Shown here in pieces: positions 36,294 through 64,000 of a DNA stretch of 64,000 nucleotides. Made by a program: the position numbers and the translations under genes. A model generated the notes under the pieces. That model made no database searches. It saw only the letters and a program-made list of their open reading frames with translations, and was not told the DNA's origin. The DNA comes from Holdemania sp. Marseille-P2844 (GTDB lineage: Bacteria; Bacillota_I; Bacilli_A; Erysipelotrichales; Erysipelotrichaceae): the NCBI RefSeq assembly GCF_900120005.1, contig NZ_LT635451.1, forward strand, positions 539,848-603,847, written 5' to 3'. The number at the start of each line of letters is the position of its first letter. The stretch's first letter is position 1.

Positions 36294-38231
36294 CTACCCT
36301 ATTATAGCAAATCCCCGGCGCGCGGTAAAAAGGAAATTACAAATCGGCGTTACGATAATCCGGATATCGCCTTCCTGCTTCGTATCGAACATCCCGATCC
36401 GGCAGTCTTCCAGGCGCTGCATGACCTCGGGATGGGGATGTTGGTAGCGGTTATTGCGGCCGCTGGAATTCAGCGCCACAATCGGTCTCAGCATTTGCAG
36501 CCAGCGCGCGCAGCTGGACGTGCGGCTGCCGTGATGCCCGAGCTTGACGATATCCGCGCGCAGGCCGGGAATCTGATCCAGAATTTTCTGCTCAATTTCA
36601 GCCGGGGCGTCCCCGCCCAGAATCATCGTCAGATCCTGCATCCGCAAAAGCAGCACCAGCGATCCCTCGTTCCCCTGCCGCGTTTCACTGTCAGGATTCA
36701 GATTGAAAATCGTTAAGCCGTGCAGGGTCAGCGGTTCGGTCATCGTCTCGATCACCTGCGCAGGTTGATAGGCTTCGATTAAAGCCTCCTTGTTGCCGCT
36801 GTGATCATCGTCCTCATGCGTTAAGATCAGCGCGTCCAGCCGCCGCACGCCCTCGCCTTGAAGCATTGCTTCAACCTGATCCAGCGCCGCCGGCTTGCCG
36901 GTATCGATCAGAAGATTCCCCTGATTGTACGGCAGGCGGATCAGGATGCTGTCGCCCTGACCGACGTCGATCAGCGTCAGACTGGCCCACGGATGCCACC
37001 AGCCCAACAGCGTCCAGCCCCCGATCAGCACGCAGAAAAGAATCATCCGCACGCGCTTGGGGAACACCCCGGCAACCCCGGCCAGAATCACAATCAGCCA
37101 CGACAGCTGCCCCGGCAGCTCCCTACCCCAGCTTAACACCCGATCCAACAGACCGGCGAGGCTCACACTGAAGGACAGAAACGGCGTAAAGACAAGCCCG
37201 GCCAGAGAACCCAGCGTACACAACGCCAAGCCCCAGCGCAACACGCGCATCCCAAGCACCATCATGGGATTCACGGTATGAAACAGGAAGCTTTGCATTG
37301 CCCAGCTCAGCGTAAAACGGGCGGTCCGCAGCGCTGAGCGAGCAGGAAACATAGCGAGCAGCGCAAACGCGAACGGAAGCAGAAAGGCCGCTGTCGCGAC
37401 CCTTCGCGGCGCTAACAGCGCCAATAACAGCCATTTGGTTTTAAACGTTTCGATTTTATCGCGATGGGGATTCAGCCGGAAGCCTTCGCTGAGCACCAGA
37501 CGAACCAGAGGATAGGGAAAATGCAGTATCGCGGCGATGCCCAGCACGGTCCCAAAGCGGATCCTCCGCACGCTCCGGTCCGTCCAGAACCAGCCGCAGA
37601 TCATTCCCAGGCCCTGGATCAGCACGCTGATTTGAAATCCGCAGCGAAGCAAGATCGCCAGTCCGCCTTCTTCCTCATTCACACCCAGAATCAGCTTGCC
37701 TGCCAGCGCCCGGGCAGCCGGATCGCGGATCGCTTCAATGCGGCGGTAAAGAAAAGCCCGCGGTGTTTTCCCGGCGCTTACGATCTTAACGGTTTTGGCA
37801 AACATGCGGCCGTTAAGCTTTTCCCGCAGCGACCAGGCTTTCGCGTCAAAACCATAGAACGAATAATTTTCCTCAAACGCACTGCTTTCCCCTTCGACCT
37901 CGACCTGATCGTCTAACCCGGGGCGATTTTCGCTGATCACCTGAAAGCGGCCTTGAGAATTTTCGAGGATAAAGCTGTTGGCGGAAACCGCGCTCACCGT
38001 GCCGCTGATCCGTGGTGCAGTGAGCGCCGGCGACGGTTTCAGCTGCCAGAACAGAATGACAAGAACCGAGGACAGCCAGAAAAACAGAAACTTCCGCTGC
38101 TTCGGGCGGGCGGAGACCAGCACGAAGACCAGGCTGAAAAGCAGGCCGGTTTTCTGCACAGGGAGCGGCAGACACAGACTGATCACGACGCAAACCAGCC
38201 ACCGCAGCGCGTCAGTGTCGTTTATAAGCAT
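36294..38231 (-). CDS. comEC: DNA uptake channel ComEC
   Basis: 645 residues from the ATG at 38231, overlapping comEA by 10 bases; the open frame further upstream is the shadow of comEA. ComEC moves single-stranded DNA across the membrane in transformation. Visible parts: N-terminal membrane segments and OB-like region (to about 190), a competence membrane domain (about 195-400), and a metallo-beta-lactamase-like domain starting LTLIDVGQGDSILIRL with LILTHEDDDHSGNKEA and KLGHHGSRTS. It is shorter than Bacillus ComEC (near 776), the deficit being in the membrane region. Confidence 0.92.
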   Translation of the reverse strand: MLINDTDALRWLVCVVISLCLPLPVQKTGLLFSLVFVLVSARPKQRKFLFFWLSSVLVILFWQLKPSPALTAPRISGTVSAVSANSFILENSQGRFQVISENRPGLDDQVEVEGESSAFEENYSFYGFDAKAWSLREKLNGRMFAKTVKIVSAGKTPRAFLYRRIEAIRDPAARALAGKLILGVNEEEGGLAILLRCGFQISVLIQGLGMICGWFWTDRSVRRIRFGTVLGIAAILHFPYPLVRLVLSEGFRLNPHRDKIETFKTKWLLLALLAPRRVATAAFLLPFAFALLAMFPARSALRTARFTLSWAMQSFLFHTVNPMMVLGMRVLRWGLALCTLGSLAGLVFTPFLSFSVSLAGLLDRVLSWGRELPGQLSWLIVILAGVAGVFPKRVRMILFCVLIGGWTLLGWWHPWASLTLIDVGQGDSILIRLPYNQGNLLIDTGKPAALDQVEAMLQGEGVRRLDALILTHEDDDHSGNKEALIEAYQPAQVIETMTEPLTLHGLTIFNLNPDSETRQGNEGSLVLLLRMQDLTMILGGDAPAEIEQKILDQIPGLRADIVKLGHHGSRTSSCARWLQMLRPIVALNSSGRNNRYQHPHPEVMQRLEDCRIGMFDTKQEGDIRIIVTPICNFLFTARRGFAIIG

Positions 38232-38695
38232 ATAAACTCCTTCAGCGCTTCCCATTTCTTCTGCTTGATGCCCGGCACCTGCATCAGATCTTCCAACGTT
38301 TGAAACAAACCATGCTCCGCGCGGTAAGCCACGATCTTTTCCGCCGTCGCCTGCCCCACTCCCGGCAGCTGCGTCAGCTGCTCGGCGGATGCGGTGTTGA
38401 TCGAAATCCGCGGCGTTTCCTGGAAATGGGGAATCTGGATCACGTCGTGATCCTTGACGATCATCGTCATTGAAAACGGCGAGAGGTCCGCGTCGTCCAA
38501 CAGCGTCACCTGGTCCAGCAATTCGCCCAGCTCGGTGTAGGGCGGACATTCCAGGGTGACCGGCTCCCGCACAGCCCCCTCGATCGTCACGGTAATCGGC
38601 TGCCCGCGCATAGCCTCCAAATCGACGACGCGCTGCGGAATCAGCGGCAGAAGCAGAAAAACGAAACAAAAAATAAGCAGGAACTCTTTTCTCAT
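38222..38695 (-). CDS. comEA: DNA-binding competence protein ComEA
   Basis: 157 residues. An N-terminal signal anchor (EFLLIFCFVFLLLPLIPQ) is followed by a SLBB-like region and a C-terminal helix-hairpin-helix pair (INTASAEQLTQLPGVGQATA, FQTLEDLMQVPGIKQKKW). ComEA binds incoming double-stranded DNA at the cell surface and passes it to ComEC, encoded by the overlapping next gene. A 17-bp element shared with the comK homologue lies 35 bases upstream. Confidence 0.94.
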   Translation of the reverse strand: MRKEFLLIFCFVFLLLPLIPQRVVDLEAMRGQPITVTIEGAVREPVTLECPPYTELGELLDQVTLLDDADLSPFSMTMIVKDHDVIQIPHFQETPRISINTASAEQLTQLPGVGQATAEKIVAYRAEHGLFQTLEDLMQVPGIKQKKWEALKEFICL

Positions 38696-38712: not shown

Positions 38713-38746
38713 CTATTGCGCAAATTGTTAAAAATCCTGTTTTTTT
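38713..38746 (-). promoter_or_regulatory. ComK-box-like element and -10 upstream of comEA
   Basis: 38730-38746 reads AAAAATCCTGTTTTTTT, which has the AAAA-N5-TTTT form of a ComK AT-box. On the minus strand a TAGAAT -10 (38713-38718 region) follows with about 17 bases between it and the box, so the box replaces the -35. The same 17 bases occur at 55752-55768 before comK. It overlaps the greA stop codon. Confidence 0.5.
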
Positions 38747-39215
38747 ACCGAATCTCTAAAATCTTTACCTGATACGGCTCGTCGACCAGAACTTCAACGG
38801 TCTGACCAACTTTGTGTTCCAGAATTGCTTCCGCCAGCGGCGTGACGTTGGACAGCTTGCCGTTGAGCGGATCCGCTTCTACGGAACCCACGATTGTGAA
38901 CTCGTCAATCTGATGCGTGTCGAGTTCTTCGATCTTAACGGTTGAGCCGATTTTCGCAACCCGTACCGAGCCCTGCTTATCGTCGATGATTTCGATATTG
39001 TTAAGCATGACTTCCAGCTCGCGGATCCGGGCTTCAACCTGAGCCTGACGATCCCGCGCGGCATCGTAGTCGGCGTTTTCAGACAAGTCGCCCTGCGCCC
39101 GGGCGGCCTTTAAATCTTCAATGACTTCCTGACGAACGACATGGATCAGGTTTTCCTGTTCCTTTTTTAATTCTTCAAGACCTTCTTGAGTTACATAAAT
39201 TTTATCATCTGCCAT
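38745..39215 (-). CDS. greA: Transcription elongation factor GreA
   Basis: 156 residues from the ATG at 39215 (AAGGAG upstream; a GTG at 39227 overlaps that site). GreA rescues backtracked RNA polymerase by stimulating transcript cleavage. The N-terminal coiled coil carries the acidic tip in ARAQGDLSENADYDAARDRQ, and the C-terminal FKBP-like domain has ISPL-type sequence (VTPLAEAILEHKVGQTVEV). It ends the alaS-reoM-ruvX-DUF1292-mltG-udk-greA run. Confidence 0.96.
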   Translation of the reverse strand: MADDKIYVTQEGLEELKKEQENLIHVVRQEVIEDLKAARAQGDLSENADYDAARDRQAQVEARIRELEVMLNNIEIIDDKQGSVRVAKIGSTVKIEELDTHQIDEFTIVGSVEADPLNGKLSNVTPLAEAILEHKVGQTVEVLVDEPYQVKILEIR

Positions 39216-39242
39216 TGGTTTTCTCACTCCTTAGCTCGGCTA

Positions 39243-55689: not shown

Positions 55690-55751
55690 AAATTCCCCTT
55701 TTTAATGCTTTGGTGAGTGATCCGTCACTAGTAATCATTGCAGAAAATTTA

Positions 55752-55768
55752 AAAAATCCTGTTTTTTT
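55752..55768 (-). promoter_or_regulatory. ComK-box-like element upstream of comK
   Basis: AAAAATCCTGTTTTTTT, identical in all 17 bases to 38730-38746 before comEA, has the AAAA-N5-TTTT form of a ComK AT-box. On the minus strand TGCAATGATTAC follows at the distance of a -10. The rest of the 55690-56040 gap holds the terminator at 55922-55945 and AT-rich sequence in which I see nothing more. Confidence 0.5.
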
Positions 55769-62360: not shown

Positions 62361-64000
62361 TATTCATCCTCGCTTTCTTCACATTGCGTGATCGCACTTT
62401 CCAGCACGTAGAACTCCCACAACTGGGCGTTCGGCCGTTTCTTCTTCCAATAGTCCTGCAGCTCGTTTAAGACCGGAATTGCTTCGCGCGGGCGGCAGAA
62501 AGCACGCGTCATCATCGCCATCTGTCCCGGGCCGAAAGCGCTGTGTTTTAAATAGGCAAGCAGCTCTTCCTGCAGCGGCAGTCCGTAAACTTGTTTAAAA
62601 TACAAGTGCCCTGCCGTCTGGCGGCGTTGATCAAAATAATCGAAAAGCTTCTGCTTCAGGAGGGCATTTTCCGGATCGGCCAGATGCACCAGCACACTGC
62701 TGCCTAACGGATCCTCCGCCCCGTAAACCGTGGCCATGGTTTTCTTGAACAGTCCCTTCTCCACGTTCCGCTGTCCCGTTAACAGGTCGATCCAGCGCAG
62801 ATCGAATGTCTTCCCTAACGGAATAACTGCCGTGTCTTCCTGAAGTGGATTGGCGATCAAGGCGCTGCGGTAAACGTATTGCTTTAAAGCCTCATCGTAT
62901 TCCACACAGGCCCAGAGCTGATTGAAAAAGGAACGCGGCTGACCGGCAAACGCTTCCGTCAATTCCTCGTATGCCTGCTCAAAGTTCTGAATCAGACGCA
63001 TCCGGGCGTACAGCGCGGCGGTTTTGTCCGGCCAGCGCTGAACAAGCGTCTTGATCAATGCTTCGGCCGCGTCGTTTTGATCCGCCAGCCAGCTGGTGAA
63101 CACGATTTCCAAAACGGTTTCACTCAACGTCCGCTCGCAGCTGCCGGCGACCAGATAGGCTAACGGCTTGACCCGCGCAAAGCGGATATGCGTGCGGAAT
63201 GGCTTTTTTTGATGATCGCGGACCGCGCTGAACGCAGCGTCCTGATCGAGAATCCAGCTCACCAGCTCCGTGATGGCCGGATCGGTTTTATAGGCGAGAA
63301 GCTTCAAGGATTCGATCAGCGCCTTTTCCGCATCGAGCGTAGGCAGCGCCTGAGCTTCCAGCACAGACTGCAGCTGTTCCTTCACGCTGGCGCAGACCAG
63401 CGCGGTGATCTCAGGATCGTTGGTATAGCCGGCATAGTGCAGAAAACGGCTGTTTTTACGGATCTTTTCCAACAAAAACGCGTCGACCTTCGGATCGCGG
63501 ATGCGTGTCAGGGCGTACAGCGCAGTTTCTTTCAGCTTCCCCTTTTCGTTATTGGCAATCTGCATCAACAGATCACAGTTGTCCGGATCGCAGGCCAGTC
63601 CCCGGATGATTTCCTTCAAAATCGCCGGCTGGGCCAGCGGAACCATCGTCCGGTAGAATGCATTTTCCCGGTTTCCCGCCAGATCGACGATCAGCCGGAT
63701 CCGCCGCAGCATCGCCTTCTTGCCGGCGGGATCGAAGCCTTCCTTTAAAAACGGAACGATCCCCGCCCCGCAAGAACGCAGAATCTGTTCGTTAAGTTCA
63801 GCCAGTTCGCCATACGCGTCGTCCAGGTCCGCGATCAGCGCCGGCAGCACGCGGTAGTCCGCGAACCGTTCAGGATGATGCTGATACGTTTTTTCAATAA
63901 TTTCGTAGCGTCCGCTTCCGGTTGTCGTCAAAGCCTGAATCAACGGTTTCAGCTGGGAATAGCGGATGTCGGTATAGGCTTTTTCTGCCGGCAGAACGAT
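62360..64000 (-). CDS. HEAT-like repeat protein of the MoxR operon, 5' end beyond window
   Basis: At least 546 residues; the frame stays open to base 64000, so the start lies outside. The TTG at 63943 is not a credible start. The sequence is all-helical with HEAT-like repeats (ETALYALTRIRDPKVDAFLLEKI; SLKLLAYKTDPAITELVSWILD). In other genomes an analogous large helical protein (DUF5691 type) lies before the MoxR gene, often with a SWIM-domain protein; I assign this role by position and fold only. It reads directly into the MoxR gene through TAATG. Confidence 0.75.
   Translation of the reverse strand: MVLPAEKAYTDIRYSQLKPLIQALTTTGSGRYEIIEKTYQHHPERFADYRVLPALIADLDDAYGELAELNEQILRSCGAGIVPFLKEGFDPAGKKAMLRRIRLIVDLAGNRENAFYRTMVPLAQPAILKEIIRGLACDPDNCDLLMQIANNEKGKLKETALYALTRIRDPKVDAFLLEKIRKNSRFLHYAGYTNDPEITALVCASVKEQLQSVLEAQALPTLDAEKALIESLKLLAYKTDPAITELVSWILDQDAAFSAVRDHQKKPFRTHIRFARVKPLAYLVAGSCERTLSETVLEIVFTSWLADQNDAAEALIKTLVQRWPDKTAALYARMRLIQNFEQAYEELTEAFAGQPRSFFNQLWACVEYDEALKQYVYRSALIANPLQEDTAVIPLGKTFDLRWIDLLTGQRNVEKGLFKKTMATVYGAEDPLGSSVLVHLADPENALLKQKLFDYFDQRRQTAGHLYFKQVYGLPLQEELLAYLKHSAFGPGQMAMMTRAFCRPREAIPVLNELQDYWKKKRPNAQLWEFYVLESAITQCEESEDE

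Follow-up and report, generated by a model that had tools for sequence, protein, structure and literature searches.

What acts on an identical 17-mer that stands before two competence genes, comEA and comK, in the same stretch of DNA from a gut-dwelling Holdemania? The word, AAAAATCCTGTTTTTTT, occurs exactly twice in the window, by which we mean the whole 64-kb stretch analysed (Table 1), and since comEA and comK both lie on the minus strand, its gene-sense form is AAAAAAACAGGATTTTT. The initial annotation had described the two copies as lying in the same orientation to the gene, about 35 nt (comEA) and 63 nt (comK) before the start codons and at the -35 place, with no third copy in the window. 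It had read the element as the AAAA-N5-TTTT AT-box of ComK, conserved even in its N5, through which one competence regulator would act on DNA-uptake genes and on comK itself. Our window search confirmed the positions, orientation and distances as well as the absence of a third exact copy, and family models bore out the identities of the two genes (Table 1). The ComEA protein shares 97% amino-acid identity with that of Holdemania filiformis DSM 12042, the closest named relative. When up to three mismatches were allowed, the window contained four matches to the 17-mer where 0.36 would be expected, and in 100 shuffles the count always stayed below four. Across the 3.68-Mb genome, a 15-mer, AAAAACAGGATTTTT, is present in exactly three copies: those of comEA and comK, and one about 46 bp upstream of the gene for DprA (TIGR00732, 203 bits, cut-off 191). 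All three copies precede competence genes, which is not a matter of chance, and shared competence control is therefore a sound suggestion.

Table 1. Positions of the repeated element, the promoter blocks and the neighbouring genes in the 64-kb window.
Feature	Position	Strand	Basis or remark
17-mer before comEA, predicted sigma-H-type -35 block	38730..38746	-	window search, congener alignment
Parts of the comEA 17-mer	A-tract 38746-38740, then C, then AGGATTTTT (38738-38730)	-	
-10 block of the comEA promoter, GCGCAATA (GCAATA at 38719-38714)	38714..38721	-	same spacing in comGA and about 30 further sites
comEA, 157 aa, helix-hairpin-helix DNA receptor	38222..38695	-	TIGR00426, 66 bits
comEC, same operon, downstream of comEA	36294..38669	-	TIGR00361, 136 bits (sub-cut-off), and Lactamase_B
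greA, upstream neighbour of comEA	38745..39227	-	its stop codon and the comEA A-tract overlap
17-mer before comK, -35 block (AGGA at 55760-55757)	55752..55768	-	
-10 block of the comK promoter, GCAATG (55741-55736)	55736..55741	-	kept as GCAATATTTA in G002 and as GTAATGATTA in G001
comK, 142 aa	55261..55689	-	PF06338, 42 bits, cut-off 22.3

The proposed -35 placement held. A second conserved block, missed by the initial annotation, follows the element at a fixed spacing. This block, GCAATA before comEA and GCAATG before comK, begins N10 after GGATTTTT in both promoters, and 15 nt separate AGGA from GCAATA at comEA. The dprA promoter consists of GGATTTTT followed by GGAAAATCCTGCGTATATCT. The promoters of comGA, which has no A-tract, and of comFA, a helicase gene with comFC downstream, both read GGCTTTTT-N10-GCAATA; their -35 is GGGC/GGC, while comEA, comK and dprA of the same genome carry AGGA. 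The conserved unit is thus GG(A/C)TTTTT-N10-GCAAT(A/G), composed of a -35 (AGGA plus T-run) and a -10 at fixed spacing. We searched the genome by pattern matching, with the reversed pattern as control. GGMTTTTT-N10-GCAATR with at most one mismatch matched 35 sites (18 exactly), compared with 3 for the control; a few of the one-mismatch matches, such as L307 and L310 within other genes, are plainly chance. A longer pattern ending in CGCAATATTAA gave 30 sites against 3, and the same pattern gave 24 sites in each of two congeners, G002 and G003 (controls 3 and 4).

In 17 of the 19 sites with an assignable ribosome-binding site and start, GCAAT lies 27-32 nt upstream of the start codon. This distance leaves space just for a -10, a transcription start site and a ribosome-binding site, which is core-promoter geometry; an activator site is unlikely at the position of GCAAT because it would cover the transcription start. 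We also aligned a set of 23 class promoters on a fixed anchor, and GG was found in all of them, partly owing to the construction of the anchor. The AAAA half was perfect in three of the 23, namely comEA, comK and dprA. Since comGA and comFA are without the A-rich half, it is dispensable, whereas GG(A/C)TTTTT and GCAAT(A/G) are not. The initial annotation had proposed looking for copies before other com genes and had held that many copies unrelated to competence would speak against it. Genome-wide, the exact element precedes competence genes only, while the wider promoter class also stands before many genes without a known competence role. Among the other com genes, dprA has the exact 15-mer, and comGA and comFA lack the AAAA half. 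The dprA promoter further contains a perfect 9-bp inverted repeat, CAGGATTTT-TGG-AAAATCCTG, across its -35 (L017, near 1480-1520), which we dropped as a functional candidate because G002 and G001 have not retained it.

We compared these promoters with those of three congeners. The comK promoter is almost unaltered in G003, and the comEA promoter of this congener has a G inserted between the A-tract and CAGGA. The promoters of G002 read AAAGCAGGAATTTTG (comEA), CAGGTTTTTT (comK) and CAGTCTTTTTT (dprA). In both congeners the inserted G disrupts the AT-box of comEA, but CAGGA stays. The dprA promoter of G002 is the one case favouring the AT-box over AGGA, since AAAA-N5-TTTT is kept and AGGA is lost, and it counts against a sigma-H-type reading, as does the AGGT of G002 comK. 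This G002 comK promoter (G002:C1:524410-524437) is matched by the longer strict pattern (GGTTTTTTAAAATTTTCTGCAATATTTA) and bridges the comK and comG variants. In G001, the most diverged congener, AGGA lies 15-16 nt before the -10 in comEA, comK, dprA and comGA, with the -10 in the form CGTATA (comEA, dprA), GCAATA (comGA) or TAATG (comK), and no AT-box was found in these four promoters.

The CGTATA form extends beyond the genus. It is the top-enriched hexamer upstream of dprA, with 15 occurrences observed in 26 genomes against 0.9 expected (z 13.4; shuffle maximum 6.5), and AGGA-like words lie 15-17 nt upstream of the CGTATA-type core in 11 of 16 occurrences. The comG promoters outside the genus carry CGTATA (G006, G025, G009), CGTATT (G024) or CGAATA (G004), and CGAATA, which is the ComX core of streptococci, also stands in the dprA promoter of G004. 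In its other genera the family has TTTTT...CGTATA or CGAATA, similar to the ComX box of streptococci. The comK upstream regions of these genera, read by eye, showed no consistent CGTATA box, so that membership of comK in the class is limited to Holdemania.

A sigma factor gene that could read such promoters is present. Its product, of 212 aa (G000:C11, about 63308-63947), contains sigma-70 regions 2 and 4 and, among NCBIfam models, is matched best by those for SigH (59-60 bits). On TIGR02859 the protein scores 59 bits, far under the equivalog cut-off of 294.8; going by this equivalog test of its sequence, it is sigma-H-like and not a standard SigH. PF04542 is above cut-off in both proteins scanned, the one from this genome and the one from G001, and PF08281 is above cut-off in the G001 protein and just below it in the other. 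The closest solved structure by sequence is the sigma-H factor 3mzy. The order of the genes, cysS-mrnC-rlmB-sigH-rpmG-secE-nusG, with neighbour names read from the sequences, is that of the canonical sigH locus. All four congeners have such a gene, as do 44 of 60 genomes, and in most cases it occupies the sigH locus. The other sigma loci inspected in the genome had neither com-linked literature nor sigH synteny. One of the sporulation-type sigma genes (L191:2807-3286; G000:C14, about 148917) is apparently cut short after SRCIEN; the G002 gene has its full length and the G003 match is split, which could reflect a sigK skin-like insertion.

From the observed sequence class, its geometry, gene targets and conservation, and from the sigma gene, we propose that the element is, with good probability, the -35 of a sigma-H/ComX-type competence promoter whose regulon includes comK. 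The genus promoter would be (A)GG(A/C)TTTTT-N10-GCAAT(A/G)(TTA), with a transcription start a few bases upstream of the ribosome-binding site. It would drive comEA-comEC, comGA, comFA-comFC and comK, as well as dprA through a CGTATA-type -10, and about 25 further genes, many of them for Rpn-family nucleases. The reader of these promoters is likely to be the diverged sigma-H-like protein from the rlmB-sigH-rpmG-secE-nusG locus. We infer that the promoters are switched on together during competence and that ComK acts downstream of the sigma factor, as one of its targets. ComK may then add a second layer, like ComK1 beside SigH in Staphylococcus aureus. Our data also suggest that sigma-H controls late com genes directly in Erysipelotrichaceae too, as it does in Listeria, Staphylococcus and lactobacilli; our literature search found no report on competence regulation in this family.

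Known systems resemble the Holdemania class in some respects and differ from it in others. SigH promoters have a -35 AGGA and a -10 GAAT with 17-18 nt between them (PMC12456013). In comEA and comK, AGGA is 16 nt from CAAT, and in relatives it is 15-17 nt from CGTATA; the GAAT of the sigma-H -10 is replaced by CAAT or CGTATA. In Listeria monocytogenes and S. aureus, the comG and comE operons are driven by a SigH-family sigma factor, and ComK-type genes are also present, as in Holdemania (PMC4754846, PMC3486894). An AGGATTT -35 precedes the comG operon of Listeria, and its comGA sigma-H promoter, AAAGGATTT (PMC4754846), is close to the Holdemania ACAGGATTT. Unlike in these two species, the Holdemania -10 is GCAATATTA or CGTATA and not GAAT, and the class takes in comK, comF and about 25 other targets, many of them Rpn genes. 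The ComX motif of streptococci, TTTTT...TMCGAATA (PMC6560143), likewise places a CG-A/T-ATA core about 10 nt behind a T-run upstream of late com genes, and G004 has exactly CGAATA. It differs from the Holdemania class, in which AGGA/GGC directly precedes the T-run, the core is CGCAATATTA (CGCAATA) and the sigma gene sits at the sigH locus. Lactobacillus sakei also has a sigH-type gene at the cysS-nusG locus, where it serves competence, but has no ComK homologue (PMC3364868), whereas Holdemania has a comK that carries the class promoter.

The AT-box reading, by which ComK would activate comEA and its own gene, is in our judgement very unlikely. A perfect half site is present in comEA, comK and dprA, as a single AAAA-N5-TTTT like that of the Bacillus subtilis K-box, the genome has a ComK gene, and the AAAA half is kept in G002 comK and dprA in spite of the change in AGGA. 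However, neither comGA nor comFA has the AAAA half, nor does any com promoter examined in the diverged congener G001, and the G inserted in comEA of G003 and G002 breaks the AT-box with CAGGA intact. A K-box requires a pair of AT-boxes separated by 8, 18 or 31 bp (PMC3536758), and in four of the five Holdemania com promoters there is no properly spaced second AT-box better than in shuffles. The best arrangements had 4 mismatches in comEA, 4 in comK, 5 in comGA and 6 in comFA, which were matched by 14%, 45%, 88% and 98% of shuffles; that of dprA, with 2 mismatches and 4% of shuffles, is marginal. What had been taken for a conserved N5, CAGGA, is accounted for by the -35 core AGGA. Of the earlier proposal that one competence regulator acts on uptake genes and on comK, the common competence-type element stands, and ComK as its reader does not. 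The sigma-H-type promoter could nonetheless be overlapped at its -35 by a putative ComK site in comEA, comK and dprA, a compatible extension of our explanation to which we give a rather low probability. The A-tract and the exact 15-mer, common to these three promoters, absent from other class members and not explained by sigma-factor reading, point that way, as does the need for both SigH and ComK1 at most S. aureus transformation genes, where the two act jointly (PMC10182052). Against it, the A-tract is lost in G001, no AT-box is left in comEA of G002 and G003, and an A-tract beside a -35 could be a UP-like element or a coincidence, the one at comEA including the greA stop codon.

The genus -10, GCAATATTA, differing from both GAAT (Bacillus sigma-H) and CGAATA (ComX), counts against a sigma-H-type promoter, and so does the low TIGR02859 score of the sigma-H-like protein. 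Another alternative sigma factor, for example of the ECF type, might read these promoters, since CGTATA resembles some ECF -10 elements and the genome has several ECF-type and sporulation-type sigma genes. Yet ECF promoters have an AAC-type -35, unlike the AGGA/GGC and T-run found here. In Listeria, S. aureus, L. sakei and streptococci, moreover, late com operons are known to be under sigma-H or ComX (PMC4754846, PMC3486894, PMC3364868, PMC6560143), and we consider a different sigma factor improbable. That the sites are AT-rich words met by chance, or a dispersed repeat upstream of genes, is hardly credible. Some do lie at duplicated genes (Rpn paralogues and a small-ORF element), and the sites are accordingly not all independent. 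But the core has 18 exact sites, and the control no more than 3 even when a mismatch is allowed; spacers and flanks differ among the single-copy targets comGA, comFA, comEA, comK, WXG100 and RcpC, and largely the same targets are found again in G002 and G003. The differing spacers and the conservation of single-copy targets among congeners led us to reject a simple repeat or insertion-element artefact.

With a sigma-H-type promoter as the preferred reading, the suspected ComK box becomes a promoter class with a definable pattern, for which any genome of Erysipelotrichaceae can be searched. Besides comGA, comFA, comEA and comK, class sites precede a pilus-assembly gene of the RcpC/CpaB type (PF16976), genes for a WXG100 protein (PF06013), a TnpB and a small Cro-like protein (HTH_26, below cut-off), Rpn-type genes and a small hydrophobic ORF. 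The targets in G002 and G003 are largely of the same kinds. About 14 Rpn-type nuclease genes lie behind class promoters in this genome. The subtypes L202, L208, L222 and L309 match PF12784 above cut-off; a second group (L200, L204, L211 and paralogues), with a common DYR-NDVFR opening judged by eye, is weaker, with one sub-cut-off TIGR01784 match and two members without a family match. On this difference, eight of the Rpn genes have support of their own or from close paralogues, and another six are likely. We suggest tentatively, at somewhat less than even chances, that Rpn nucleases (about 14), TnpB, pilus-assembly genes and WXG100 outnumber the DNA-uptake genes in the competence regulon, with comK subordinate. 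If so, Rpn nucleases would be competence effectors, acting for example on incoming DNA or in cell defence during uptake, and this would tie intact, multi-copy Rpn genes to competence. In pneumococcus, degraded genes of the Rpn/transposase type are likewise driven by ComX (PMC6560143), which hints at a competence role for Rpn. The role of these nucleases is debated between horizontal transfer (PMC5350276) and anti-phage toxins (PMC10327210).

Several other loci carry the class promoter. About eight dispersed short elements (L197, L198, L206, L212, L215, L219, L220, L001), also present in G002 and G003, share the leader GTAGGGT..TTTG....GCCCGTCC and a hydrophobic/basic ORF of 40-60 aa (for example MEHFLELFVNVVLKVGLPLIECSIKVIE...). 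An Rfam search of the small-ORF element and the com loci returned just an unrelated T-box and a tRNA, the element itself being unmatched. A gene for a TnpB-type RNA-guided nuclease (NF040570) lies about 100 nt behind a class promoter at L221 (G000:C15:245386), and similar promoters occur in G003 and G002 (L324, L341). A conserved protein of 230 aa with no family assigned (MPEPSLNEYFNLTNDLLFKLI...) is encoded behind a class promoter in three congeners (L199, L318, L339).
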